The notes beneath the pieces were generated by a model that saw only the letters and a list, made by a program, of their open reading frames with translations, searched no databases and was not told the origin of the DNA. Made by a program: the position numbers and the translations under genes. This document shows positions 29,201 to 53,596 of a stretch of DNA of 64,000 bases, one piece after another (positions within the stretch are counted from its first letter, which is position 1; every line of letters starts with the position of its first letter). This DNA is from Cucumis sativus (taxonomy: Eukaryota > Streptophyta > Magnoliopsida > Cucurbitales > Cucurbitaceae). Where the stretch lies: assembly GCF_000004075.3 (NCBI RefSeq), contig NC_026661.2, positions 19,434,307 through 19,498,306 on the forward strand, given 5' to 3'.

Positions 29201-32200
29201 ACTTTTAACTCATGCTCCCTTTTATAAAGATATCTTTATACATAGAAATAAATAGATAAAAGAACCAGAAGCATGACATGTTCGCAGAAAAAAGAACACA
29301 GTGTTTCCCGCCGTAGCTGAAGCCCACCTAAGTTTATCATATAGTGATATTACTAGACTTGCAACTATCTTGGCTCATAAAATCAGATTAGTAATTTGTC
29401 ATCCTTGCACAGTGGTCATGCCAATCTTCTCTGTACCGTTCCAATTTTATCGGATGTCCCAGCAGGGACATAAAATCAAACTAGTAATGAACTTATCAGT
29501 TAGAAAGGTCGAGGACTCGAAGATATGGACCATATACAAGATAGCTCACCATTGAACAGCCACTCGGATTTGTTGTGCGTGTCCATTTTACGTGTAATTG
29601 TAATCTTTTCCTCTTTAGTATTCCCTCTCAAGGTTATTCTAACATAACCAGACTCCTCCCCACGCTTCACGTATGCTCCAACACTGGTTGCCCTTCCAAG
29701 GAGCTGCAAAAAAAGATTCTAACCAATCTATACAAGAAAACAAGCTAGAAAAGGAATTCCTCCGTGAGAGTATCAGGCATATTAATCAACATTTAACCAA
29801 CCTGAGGCTCACCACCAAGGCCAAGGGCAATAGCACACACAATAGAGCTTTTACCAGATCCATTAGGCCCAATTACAAGGTTTAGACGTGATCCTGGTTT
29901 ACATTTCAGGTGGTTAAAGGTCATAAAGTTATGAAGCTCAATCTCAATTATACTTCCAGGCATATAATCATCTTCCCCCCTGAAGAACAAGAAAGTGTAA
30001 AACATTCAGTATGATGTAAAATATAAGTAATATAAAACACTGCACATACATTTCAACCCTAAATCTGCATAAGAAAAATGAACACAAATAAAACTGCAAT
30101 ATTAATTCAGTGAAATTTCCAATTTTACAATTATTGGTTATCACCTATAAGAATGGCAACACAGTAATAAGATATAAAATATTGTATTTAATGAGTTTTC
30201 ACTCCGTGCTAATCTCGTTTCAACATGTTCAAATCTTTTGCTCTTGAACCTAAGGACACCTCAGTGTCGGAAACTTCAATAAGAGAAACTTGGCCCATCT
30301 AATGGGATTGGAAACTCTTAAAGAATGAAGAGTTGGAAATTCAAGTAACTTCTTTGTTGAGAAATGTTGGTCTGAGGAGATTTAAAGGTGGAAAACTGAT
30401 TTTGGAAGAAACCTTAAGAATTTAGAGGCTAGTGAGTGGGCCAGCTTATCAAATTTACTTCAAGATGTTGTTCTCAACCAAGATCCTTACTCGAAAAGAT
30501 GGAAGTCATACAGCAGTGCAGTAGTGGGTTTTTTTTTTCTTGTACAACCATTTGAATCATGATGAATAAAATTCCAGGACTCTTTGTAAATCTTAACTCA
30601 TATTCTTTGTTTATTTTTAACGGTCAGTTTAGCTACATTATGTCTTAGTTGGCTTAAGTTATTTAGACTAACCTTTGTGATCTTACCCCTTTCCCTCAAG
30701 CAGAACCTATATAAAAAGGACACAGTTTGCCAGAAAGAATGATGGAAGATTGCTTGTGGAAATCCCAATCTCACCGAAAAATGAATTGGAAGATCCAAAA
30801 AAGAAAACATAAAAACAATTAGTAGAGAAAATACCTAAAGATAACATGTTTGAGTGGCTCAGGATGAAAGCTAGAGACACGCTTTAACACATGGAAATTG
30901 AAAGAGAAATGGTGTTTCTAGCCTTCTAACTAGGAGAGAAAGCTCTACAAGCATCCTCTGGTGCATGTAATAAGGAAATAACCTATAAAGTGCTTCTTTA
31001 AGAGTTAAACTTTCATTGTTGTCCATATTTCAAAGCTTTGGAAATTTTAGTTCAAATCCTTTGTTCATGGGTGAAAGATGAAAACATTGCTTGTTTTTCT
31101 TCCCCTTCCCTCTATAGAATGCTTAGCCAAGGTCCAAAGTAAAGAAATTGTTGAGGTTCTGACCTTTCCCAAACCTACCCATTCATATATAGGTTTAGGA
31201 TGGCCACTAGGTTGTGGAGAGTTCATTGTGACACTAAATGCCCTAAATTTTTCAAGATTACATCCAAAAGTTAGAATCTTCCACTTGTTTAAATCTCGTC
31301 TAGCAAAATCTTCATTTAAAGATTTTTGTAAGATGAGATCCCACAGAACTTATAATGACATAAAAAACAGGGGAGTTCTTTACAATAGAGAGGTCATCAA
31401 GGTTAAGAATTTCATGACAGGACCTAGTTTCAAGTCCCTGTGCTCTTCCCAAAAAAGAAAGCCACACACCAACACCTAGACCTCTCCAGTGATTTAAACC
31501 TTCAAAGGATAAGAGGGTCAACAAATCAACTATGACAAACAAAATATTTGGTGAGAGTAAGAATGAGCATGTAAGAATTGACTAAGACAGGATGCTTAGC
31601 ACTTTTTTTTTCTGGATAGAAGATGTACAGAATTTGTTTCAGCTAACAGCTACTCTCCTTTTTTGTTGCTAAATTTAGCCACTTTTCCAAATAGTATAAT
31701 AACAGGAATTTAACGTTCTGTTGTTTGGCCAAATGCTGGGATATGTTCCCCTTTCGTTATCTCTTTTTTATGTCTACTTCCACTTAGTAAATTGTACTTA
31801 ATGCAAGCACATTGCTCAAGCTAATTATCATGAGCAACACTGAACAGATTATTTCCACTTCTGATTTTCTCTTCCTTGCCTCTGTTATTCTGTTAATCTG
31901 TTCAATAGATTTAATATTAAACATTAAAAAAAAAAAAAAAAGGCTATAGCAAATAATTCCATAAACAAACAGGAGTATGAAAAGGGAAACTTTTGGCTCG
32001 TTTGGCAATGACAAGAAACAGAAGACCACAAAATATGTCAAGAAGCTGAATTTTCACAAGTTCAAACTCTCCAAGACCACGAGAAGAACTGCAATTCGAT
32101 GTGATGGAAGCTCAAAAATATAAAAACTTCCAGTTTTCCATCCACTTTCTCGGCATCCAAACATGTGCCACAGAACTACAGAAGCAAAACCCTAGTTCTA

Positions 32201-32356
32201 TTCTAACACCATTATCACACTAAAGTAGAAAACACACGAGCATAAAACGGAATGGAAGAAAAATACAAATATTTTAACAGTGGGCCAACAATTGAATGAA
32301 GGTGATACAGACCTCGTAATTCTAAGGCGCTTAGCGCGATGCTCGGATTCCGCCAT
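17203..32356 (-). CDS. SMC5: Structural maintenance of chromosomes protein 5
   Basis: SMC5 pairs with SMC6 in the nuclear SMC5/6 complex, which acts in homologous-recombination repair and sister-chromatid alignment. Thirty exons join with every phase in agreement to 1049 residues (family about 1050): 32356-32313, 29979-29802, 29703-29550, 28889-28816, 28654-28517, 28272-28168, 28071-27926, 26048-25937, 25862-25707, 25321-25200, 25118-24974, 24862-24797, 24446-24318, 24250-24152, 24015-23850, 23761-23616, 23458-23395, 23325-23201, 23048-22971, 22755-22683, 22281-22178, 21051-20935, 20862-20785, 19786-19687, 19595-19541, 18717-18669, 18586-18499, 18422-18350, 17453-17350 and 17264-17203. Start [15 protein letters not shown]. 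Walker [10 protein letters not shown] is at 52-60, two long coiled coils flank a hinge at about 450-610, the ABC signature HHQSGGERSV is near 935-945, and Walker B FRVVDE is near 962. Introns 1, 7 and 29 are long and contain mobile-element debris. I see no lesion. Confidence 0.95.
17816..18182. mobile_element. Foldback MITE-like element in SMC5 intron 29
   Basis: The left end (aggttaaatattattttggt, then gaagtttgtttagtttt) and the right end (aacaaacttcagcctaggga, then ctaaaatgttattttaactt) are imperfect inverted repeats. The pairing continues inward (tttcaattgtcaaattttaatc against gattaaaattttacaattgaaa). A non-coding element of about 370 bp with long inverted ends fits a foldback MITE. I could not define a clear target-site duplication. 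Confidence 0.55.
18885..19010. repeat. Short direct duplication in an SMC5 intron
   Basis: The block actattcctaagacacattg (continuing gagtataatgccatttaatt) at about 18886 recurs with three changes at about 18972. Between the copies is a telomere-like taaacctaaaccctaaaccc. Confidence 0.7.
19970..20540 (-). mobile_element. LINE 3'-end fragment in SMC5 intron 23
   Basis: Read on the minus strand, this encodes [20 protein letters not shown] then [21 protein letters not shown]. That is the tail I recognise from plant non-LTR retrotransposon polyproteins (after the zf-RVT domain). It continues to a short A-rich end near 19975. It is 5'-truncated and full of breaks, and lies in the same orientation as SMC5. 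Confidence 0.6.
21082..21285. repeat. About 110-bp imperfect tandem duplication in SMC5 intron 21
   Basis: A block with aataatgtttttagt, ccccattccaaca, cttgcacaattctga and aatagaggaaatggaaggaa occurs at 21082-21180 and, diverged, at 21196-21285. Confidence 0.7.
24585..24770 (-). mobile_element. LINE 3'-end fragment in SMC5 intron 12
   Basis: The minus-strand reading gives [20 protein letters not shown] then [10 protein letters not shown], followed by a tail ending ctcaatgaaagc. This is the same LINE C-terminus as in intron 23, here only about 180 bp long. It is in the same orientation as the host gene. Confidence 0.55.
26780..27545 (-). mobile_element. Degenerate LINE fragment with zf-RVT region in SMC5 intron 7
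   Basis: On the minus strand the segment near 27525-27440 reads [20 protein letters not shown], the start of a zinc-binding RT-associated (zf-RVT) region of a plant LINE. It continues, with frame shifts, as [13 protein letters not shown]. After an insert it resumes near 27035 as [20 protein letters not shown] and CNYSLGN, and ends at about 26785 (tcaatgaaagg). It carries stops and frame shifts and is plainly dead. It accounts for part of the unusually long intron 7. Confidence 0.6.
27045..27238 (-). mobile_element. Solo-LTR-like insert inside the LINE fragment
   Basis: About 194 bp splits the LINE reading frame. On the minus strand it begins tgttatgtaag and ends cttagattaca, which are imperfect inverted ends. 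Inside it has a TATA-like ctataaatatgagtctt and an A-rich aataaaaaat, as LTRs do. I see no convincing target-site duplication, so the class is tentative. Confidence 0.4.
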
Positions 32357-52415: not shown

Positions 52416-53596
52416 AGGCATGTTTGAAAACTTTAATTTCTTCAACGATGGAAAAATTGTTGATGAAGAAACAGAATCATCATTGTTCACAATAATGTAC
52501 TCGATGTTGGGTAATTCTACTAGGTCAAGATGCTTGAGATTAGGAAATTGATCGAATTTGGGGAGGTGTCGTAATCTTTCACAATGATAAAGACATATAG
52601 TGACAAGACAATCAAGGAACTTAGAGGATACCCAATTACATAAATTCACTCCACCATATCCATCAATAAGTATCTTTCGAAGATTTAAATGTGGTTGTAA
52701 GCAATCTAAAACACTTTCGTAGATCACATCCTCCAACTTATCATCACCAATTGTATGTTTCTCCCAATGTAATTCCAACTTGTGAAGACCAGACTTTAGT
52801 TGCAAGAACTTACCCTTCATTTGTTGATCAACACTACCGGTACAAAATTCCAAATGTTCCATGCTTAATGTTCCTATTAATTTGGTAAGTCCATCCAACT
52901 CCTTTAACTCACCACCCTTATTCTTTCCCAACACAAATCTATACATTGTTTGAAGGTTAATCAGCTCACCTAACCCTTTTGGCATATGAACGAGACTCGA
53001 ACATCCTTCCAAACTAAGATGCTTAAGTTTGATCAACCTTTTAGTATTTTCTGGCAATTTTCTTAACTTACCACAATAATCAAGGATAAGTTCTTCCAAC
53101 TTACACAACTCAGTAATAGAATCGGAAAGATTTTATATTATAATTGTGAGAGAGAACAAGTTGCCTAAGATTGTTGCAATTTTTTATATCTTTCGGCAAT
53201 CCTTTTAATGGACAAAAAATAAGTTTAAGTGCTTCCAACTTACACAACTCGGTAATAGAATCTTGAAGGAATTCTAATTTATATTTAAGAGAGAGATCCA
53301 AATGCTTAAGATTGATCAAGTTTCCTATATTACTAGACATAATTTTTAATCCCGAGCCTTGAAAGATAAATGTTTCTAAATTGCACAACTTCATAATGCA
53401 ATCTGGAAGATCTATGTTACTAATTGATGAACTCATAATTCTCAAATATCTCAAATGTTTCAATTTACCAATAAACTATAAAGAGTACTCTACATATTCG
53501 ATTTCACCTTTCAACTGTAAGTGCAATGCTCGCAATCGAAAAATATTACTAAAGATTATTTGTTTGAAGTTCCATTGTGAACCAATTAGCCTATAG
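52371..53596 (-). pseudogene. LRR-only NLR pseudogene with stop and frameshift (LRR E)
   Basis: A CNL LRR remnant related to NLR A. In transcript order: RLRALHLQLKGEIEYVEYSL then an in-frame TAG near 53478, then KLKHLRYLRIMSSSISNIDL and LPDCIMKLCNLETFIFQGSG, then a frameshift near 53110-53125. There the sequence goes from SHNYNIKS into DSITELCKLEELILDYCGKL. It continues with HMPKGLGELINLQTMYRFVL, CLQPHLNLRKILIDGYGGVN and SSTIFPSLKKLKFSNMPKL. The last codons (VLRNRTGYEEVV, stop) come from the antisense LINE piece. CC and NB-ARC are absent. It is not functional as a receptor. Confidence 0.85.

Follow-up and report, generated by a model that had tools for sequence, protein, structure and literature searches.

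SMC5-derived fragments in a cucumber NLR cluster and in decayed copies of cluster sequence on other chromosomes

On chromosome 7 of cucumber (Cucumis sativus) the 5′ end of the genome-maintenance gene SMC5 lies beside an array of nucleotide-binding leucine-rich-repeat (NLR) genes, and pieces of that 5′ end recur within the array, which raises the question of what duplication history these pieces record. We analysed a window of 64,000 nucleotides (C7:19434307-19498306; C3, C4, C5 and C7 denote chromosomes, and other coordinates are window positions) and searched the genome (226.6 Mb, 88 contigs), very common words being skipped in the genome searches. An earlier, sequence-only reading of the window had proposed that a unit made of the SMC5 5′ end and an adjacent NLR was duplicated in tandem by unequal exchange, leaving decayed SMC5 passengers that would date and order the local duplications. 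The best reading of the present data is that the fragments bear witness to the spread of the cluster through the genome and not to its expansion in place; an SMC5 scar was probably formed in the array and carried out of it, together with array sequence, by ectopic segmental duplication.

SMC5 fragments within the array

The three fragments noticed in the earlier reading are recovered when 15000-34200 is compared with 34201-64000 by BLAST, all plus/plus with SMC5 (Table 1). The best score in 100 dinucleotide shuffles of the cluster is 37.4 bits, and the fragment pieces score 804, 329, 178 and 61.7 bits; the sole piece near chance level is the 27-base middle piece of fragment 2 (41.9 bits), though it is collinear with its neighbours. 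Intron 1 and the introns around exons 4-5 are retained, so that the fragments are DNA-level copies, as had been claimed, and an origin as processed pseudogenes is ruled out. SMC5 itself is on the minus strand and runs leftward from the ATG, where the earlier reading had placed it, in the first open reading frame, which holds exon 1; four exon peptides best match SMC5 chains in the PDB (E 1.5e-43), the best SMC6 chain reaching E 3.5e-13. The exon limits in Table 1 were judged by eye. Left of 28456 there is a single match to the cluster at E <=1e-4, a 40-base inverted one, and the effect is thus specific to the 5′ part of SMC5.

Fragment 1 (282 columns, 73 % identity with gaps counted) had been described as exon 1 plus leader. 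The leader is there, and exon 1 is mostly lost: the SMC5 similarity starts in intron 1, and 28 of the 44 exon-1 bases are gone, the loss being flanked by CTCG repeats. Fragment 2 consists, as described, of exons 4-5 and part of intron 1, brought together at two seams. At the first about 2.1 kb of SMC5 is absent and TATAT stands on both sides, and at the second SMC5 31212-31254 is absent. In its exon 5 the frame is altered and several amino acids differ, as expected of a dead copy. Later decay of the passenger, as supposed in the earlier reading, is supported. Fragment 3 (73 columns, 79 %, E 2.9e-10) lies entirely upstream of the start codon. A perfect 80-base tandem duplication at 51997-52155, immediately left of fragment 3, is probably recent because its copies are 100 % identical.

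An SMC5 piece had been ascribed to each NLR block, and this does not hold for the full-length NLRs at 47169 and 55733. When 31850-34230 was compared by sensitive BLAST with the 3′ flanks of these two genes, no match was obtained, and an unfiltered leader profile run over the whole window (21 rows) found nothing significant besides SMC5, 39051-39316 and 52075-52246, the next-best row having E 0.11; NLR C and NLR E are therefore without a recognisable SMC5 piece.

It is conceivable, if unlikely, that each SMC5 piece is filler laid down independently in double-strand-break repair, without any NLR duplication. Fragment 2 fits this best: its SMC5 bits are fused at a TATAT overlap, no target-site duplication is seen by eye at its ends, and it has neither an adjacent NLR of equal age nor a further copy in the genome searches. 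The two places aligned in search of an empty site for fragment 2 lose homology before reaching it, the B-like paralogue at C7:19.549 Mb at 43574 and C5:9.25 Mb at 43667. The leader pieces argue the other way, since they show flank joins, a deletion common to two copies and, at several loci, cluster DNA in collinear order, all described below.

Table 1. SMC5-derived fragments, their source and the neighbouring array in the window
Feature	Position	Strand	Remarks
Fragment 1	39056-39306	-	SMC5 32158-32437: intron 1, exon 1 remnant, leader
Fragment 2	43830-44664	-	SMC5 28456-29071 (at 43830-44426, 89 %), 31186-31211 (at 44421-44447) and 31255-31471 (at 44448-44664, 94 %), fused
Fragment 3	52174-52246	-	SMC5 leader/upstream sequence 32389-32460
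SMC5 5′ part (source of all pieces)	28456-32515	-	ATG 32356; intron 1 ~29980-32312; P-loop exon within 29796-30005; exons 4-5 ~28530-28900; upstream sequence above 32356
NLR A	34205-36448	-	747 amino acids; Rx_N, NB-ARC, winged helix, LRR shortened
NLR A 5′ flank	36842-37095		Similar sequence adjoins SMC5 intron 1 on C3
NLR 5′ flank, second copy	38784-39057		Directly abuts fragment 1; counterpart adjoins SMC5 intron 1 at C5:29.626 Mb
NLR B 3′ flank (ig2)	39383-40483		Parts recur after the SMC5 tags of C4, C5:9.25 Mb and C5:29.62 Mb
NLR B	40920-43619	-	899 amino acids; CNL, R13L1-type LRR
LRR remnant D	45296-46321	-	
NLR C	47169-50831	-	1220 amino acids; no SMC5 piece found on 3′ side
LRR remnant F	52371-53475	-	Two overlapping frames; Pfam scan of first frame only
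NLR E	55733-59197	-	1154 amino acids; no SMC5 piece found on 3′ side
Segment right of NLR E	61323-62369		61300-62400 matches elsewhere only the C5:9.25 Mb relic, right of its SMC5 leader

Cluster sequence on other chromosomes

A genome search with 28400-32700 gave 41 rows, eight of which are SMC5, fragment 1, fragment 2 (two rows) and four loci outside the cluster, with one row each (C4:22780481, C3:14258744, C5:29625897 and C5:9260102); the remaining 33 fall on two short dispersed repeats within SMC5 (query 996-1083 and 2586-2681). The only end-to-end match is SMC5 itself. A second search, with the C3 locus, gave 44 rows. Two short dispersed repeats (query 1-105 and 836-920) account for most of these, and the others fall only at the C3, C7 and C5:29.62 Mb places already known. 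A short dispersed repeat is also present above SMC5 (7 of the 12 rows of a genome search, query 617-708). The fragments are not composed of dispersed repeats, and a generic repeat origin of the leader and of fragment 2 is ruled out. Nor are the fragments a repeat spread genome-wide, an outcome that would have told against the earlier reading: in searches that skip very common words, SMC5-derived sequence outside SMC5 itself is limited to seven places, three of which are the fragments, and the ends differ from place to place. A search of bacterial plasmids gave no match and is uninformative.

When 10-30 kb around each of the four loci is compared with the window, cluster sequence is present at all four, in each case with an SMC5-derived piece (its tag); distances are given as K, the Kimura two-parameter (K2P) divergence. 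At C3:14.26 Mb the order is a 263-column A-like NB stretch, the NLR A 5′ flank, the tag, and pieces like 44746-45160 (K 0.183 for the A-like NB-ARC piece, 0.158 for the flank and 0.130 for the tag to SMC5). The C5:9.25 Mb locus, read in reverse, has the SMC5 leader, pieces resembling 61323-62369, short stretches akin to 33555-33649 and to 54335-54417, ig2, and an NLR B that is split by about 4 kb and has stops (K 0.158 for the tag, 0.192 for ig2 and 0.111-0.115 for the broken NLR B). At C4:22.78 Mb the tag is followed by sequence that weakly matches the DNA upstream of SMC5 (32992-33090) and then by ig2 (K 0.189 and 0.073 for tag and ig2), and the 30 kb read there has no match to the NLR proteins of the window. 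The C5:29.62 Mb locus, also reversed, has an NLR 5′ flank, a stretch of some 96 bases from SMC5 intron 1, and ig2 (K 0.110, 0.151 and 0.134), again with no match to the window NLR proteins in the 10 kb read. The NLR content of the four loci is thus part of an A-like NLR on C3, a broken NLR B at C5:9.25 Mb, and NLR flanks only at C4 and C5:29.62 Mb; none of the stretches read showed an intact NLR. At least 89 NB-ARC matches occur in the genome, two of them in these loci, at C3:14255955 and C5:9244915 (with stops). The closest DNA matches of NLR B are at these relics: identity is 87 % at C5:9.24 Mb, and the B-like gene at C7:19.549 Mb reaches 73 %.

Homology in several parts and in cluster order, at four unlinked loci and with K of 0.07-0.19, marks these copies as probable ectopic segmental duplications, although the order departs from that of the cluster at C5:9.25 Mb, where the pieces like 61.3-62.4 kb and 54.3 kb stand between the tag and ig2. 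The 61323-62369 segment is perhaps what remains of a further array unit. Sequence like an NLR 5′ flank is also present right of fragment 2 (44741-44989, 70 % identical to 38831-38970), and it has a counterpart right of the tag on C3. The left part of the window has weak matches to the off-cluster loci at 12146-12242 and 14431-14533.

Three of the six leader or intron-1 copies (fragment 1, C5:29.62 Mb and C3) share a further feature, in that SMC5 intron 1 is joined to a related NLR 5′ flank; at C5:29.62 Mb about 30 bases separating the flank from clear SMC5 sequence are unassigned. These would represent one join that has since eroded. Left of fragment 3, at 1.2 kb, there is one 25-base identity to the NLR A flank. 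Fragment 1 and the C4 copy both lack 28-29 exon-1 bases between CTCG repeats, and the C5:9.25 Mb copy retains them. Over the same 143 columns of ig2 the copies beside fragment 1 and on C4 are the closest pair (12 differences), with 17 between C4 and C5:29.62 Mb, 20 between fragment 1 and C5:29.62 Mb, and 25-28 between each of these three and C5:9.25 Mb. Because they share the exon-1 deletion and are the closest ig2 pair, the C4 copy and fragment 1 most likely go back to a single copy that was already broken, although the margin in ig2 is small. The NLR B 3′ flank also contains a tandem duplication of about 140 bases (39582-39870, 87 %), which probably predates the C4 copy, since that copy matches both halves. 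The homology, its order, the flank-to-intron joins, the shared lesion and the relative divergence of the copies are all matters of direct observation.

Divergence of the fragments and of the NLRs

The K2P distance to SMC5 is 0.164 for fragment 1 (247 sites), 0.080 (597 sites) and 0.067 (217 sites) for the two main parts of fragment 2, and 0.226 for fragment 3 (72 sites). Synonymous divergence (dS) was computed for ten pairs of NLRs and remnants, with F represented by its first frame and with A-D, B-D, B-E and the pairs of the second F frame outside the set. The values are 2.00 for B-C, 1.90 for A-B, 1.24 for A-C, 1.13 for A-E, 1.11 for F-C, 0.83 for F-D, 0.67 for F-E, 0.49 for C-E, 0.48 for D-C and 0.36 for D-E. 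Since dS is 0.36-2.0 and the K of the pieces is 0.07-0.23, the window NLRs in the computed pairs separated before the SMC5 pieces arrived. Full constraint on the SMC5 side would at most about double the apparent age of the pieces. At intron-1 sites considered separately, fragment 1 differs from SMC5 at 21 of 150 positions and the C3 copy at 26 of 221. The contrast is seen directly at fragment 1. Its K is 0.16, and the NLRs on either side of it, A and B, have a dS of 1.9 and are 40 % identical in amino acids. For fragment 2, too, the window has no pair of NLRs as similar to each other as that fragment is to SMC5. Block duplication at a single age is ruled out by this contrast, and so is the use of the fragments to date and order the local NLR duplications; the comparison of passenger with NLR that the earlier reading had called for finds the two unequally diverged within the window.

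Fragment 2 differs from SMC5 about half as much as fragment 1 does (59 of 814 sites as against 36 of 247; Fisher p 8e-4) and comes from another SMC5 interval, so that two or more copying events must be assumed, unless conversion has made fragment 2 more similar to SMC5.

We therefore regard as distinctly improbable the proposal that one unit, the SMC5 5′ end plus an NLR, was duplicated in tandem to give the present NLR blocks, the passengers then decaying. The common orientation and the retained introns agree with it, as does the presence of one piece 3′ of each of B, D and F, and SMC5 upstream DNA is shared as far as 33090 at C4 and perhaps 33649 at C5:9.25 Mb (both weak matches). Unequal exchange as such is compatible with the join of flank and intron 1 at fragment 1. 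A single unit as the source of the present NLRs is contradicted by the dS contrast, unless gene conversion has homogenised SMC5 and the fragments, by the absence of any piece found at NLR C and NLR E, and by the derivation of the pieces from three different SMC5 intervals (28456-31471, 32158-32437 and 32389-32460), where a block duplication would leave one set of breakpoints; erosion could blur the last two.

The array itself is of the CNL (CC-NBS-LRR) type, as Rx_N, NB-ARC, winged-helix and LRR regions are all present in NLRs A, B, C and E. NLR A is without much of the LRR present in NLR C and NLR E, and the shortness of this gene, which stands next to SMC5, may point to a deletion in the left unit. 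LRR repeats spaced at 72 bases, with 75-83 % identity between shifted copies, occur at the 3′ end of NLR C (47257-47693), and this run is a possible site of repeat-number change. More B-like NLR sequence (68-82 %), on the opposite strand and with two NB-ARC matches, is located about 50 kb past the window at C7:19548693-19558471.

Proposed history and comparison with other clusters

According to the history that we favour, an old CNL array, with its NLRs already diverged, would have stood beside the SMC5 5′ end. An exchange inside the array would have copied that end, from intron 1 outward, along with upstream DNA, to give fragment 1 at a site between an A-type NLR 5′ flank and the NLR B 3′ flank, and fragment 3 would be a more eroded piece. 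Array stretches with the scar would then have been copied to C3, to C4 and twice to C5, and have decayed there. A later and separate event would have placed fragment 2 between NLR B and LRR remnant D, perhaps as filler in break repair. We infer that the process was unequal exchange or break repair, and the direction would be out of C7, because C7 has the only whole SMC5 5′ region in the genome search.

Several points weigh against this history. The three joins end at different points of SMC5 (32158, 31927 and ~32000-32043), and independent joins are possible; C4, C5:9.25 Mb and fragment 3 have no NLR 5′ flank directly on their left. Exon 1 is outside the C3, C5:29.62 Mb and fragment 3 copies, so that the exon-1 lesion groups two copies only, and since it lies between 4-base repeats it could recur. 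The ig2 margin of 12 against 17 differences is small, the tags are short (72-275 sites) with wide errors, and gene conversion could make the pieces look young. Without an outgroup the changes are unpolarised, and the direction is not proved.

Spread by a transposable element that had captured the SMC5 leader and NLR flank is extremely unlikely: copies do occur on three other chromosomes, and of the two arms of an imperfect 19-base inverted repeat one lies within the C4 copy and the other about 0.5 kb to its left, but the copies are few, their extents differ (~1, 2, 7 and 16 kb), that repeat bounds the C4 copy at neither end, and no bounding inverted repeats were found at the C4 copy or fragment 2, the two examined.

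Each fragment is also upstream of an NLR on the same strand, the distances being about 230 bases from fragment 2 to the first ATG of NLR B, about 1.4 kb from fragment 3 to NLR C and about 2.7 kb from fragment 1 to NLR A. Fragment 2 could act as a source of promoter or 5′ leader sequence for NLR B. Fragments 1 and 3 contain DNA from above the SMC5 start, through which NLR expression could become tied to that of a genome-maintenance gene. We think any regulatory effect of the pieces on the NLRs very unlikely, however, and give a functional link between SMC5 and the NLRs no weight.

In the tomato Hcr9 (Cf-4/Cf-9) clusters lipoxygenase fragments lie between the genes, so that there, too, fragments of a non-resistance gene are interspersed in the array, although the Hcr9 genes encode receptor-like proteins, unlike the NLRs of the cucumber cluster; we know of no dispersal of such tags to other chromosomes. 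Among NLR clusters, the grapevine REN1 NBS-LRR cluster is described as having spread its NBS genes by segmental, tandem and ectopic duplication, with nine NBS-LRR pseudogenes beside two full-length genes in the interval (PMC2814809). It thus resembles the cucumber cluster in combining local and ectopic duplication with dead copies; that account, in the portion available, does not mention a fragment of a neighbouring housekeeping gene as a tag, which the cucumber cluster has. At the Co-2 CNL cluster of common bean segments were copied locally and to another chromosome, with break-repair junctions (PMC6102362), and this likewise recalls the cucumber cluster. The Co-2 cluster has a subtelomeric position, and an identity of >90 % was used to call its segmental duplications, whereas the cucumber copies outside the cluster have K of 0.07-0.19 and no intact NLR in the stretches read. 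The split between C. hystrix and cucumber is put at ~4.5 million years (PMC7917098). A literature search over titles and abstract openings found no prior description of SMC5 pieces in an NLR cluster.

Local and ectopic duplication of NLR clusters is already established, and what this locus adds is an unusually readable tag. NLRs evolve fast and can convert one another, so that the history of dead and scattered copies is hard to read. A single-source fragment of a housekeeping gene beside NLR flank is a clean tag, by which relics on other chromosomes can be traced to their source cluster, and the joins and lesions within it help to group those relics. Such passenger fragments need not date the local expansion of the NLRs, and in the cucumber cluster they are clearly younger.

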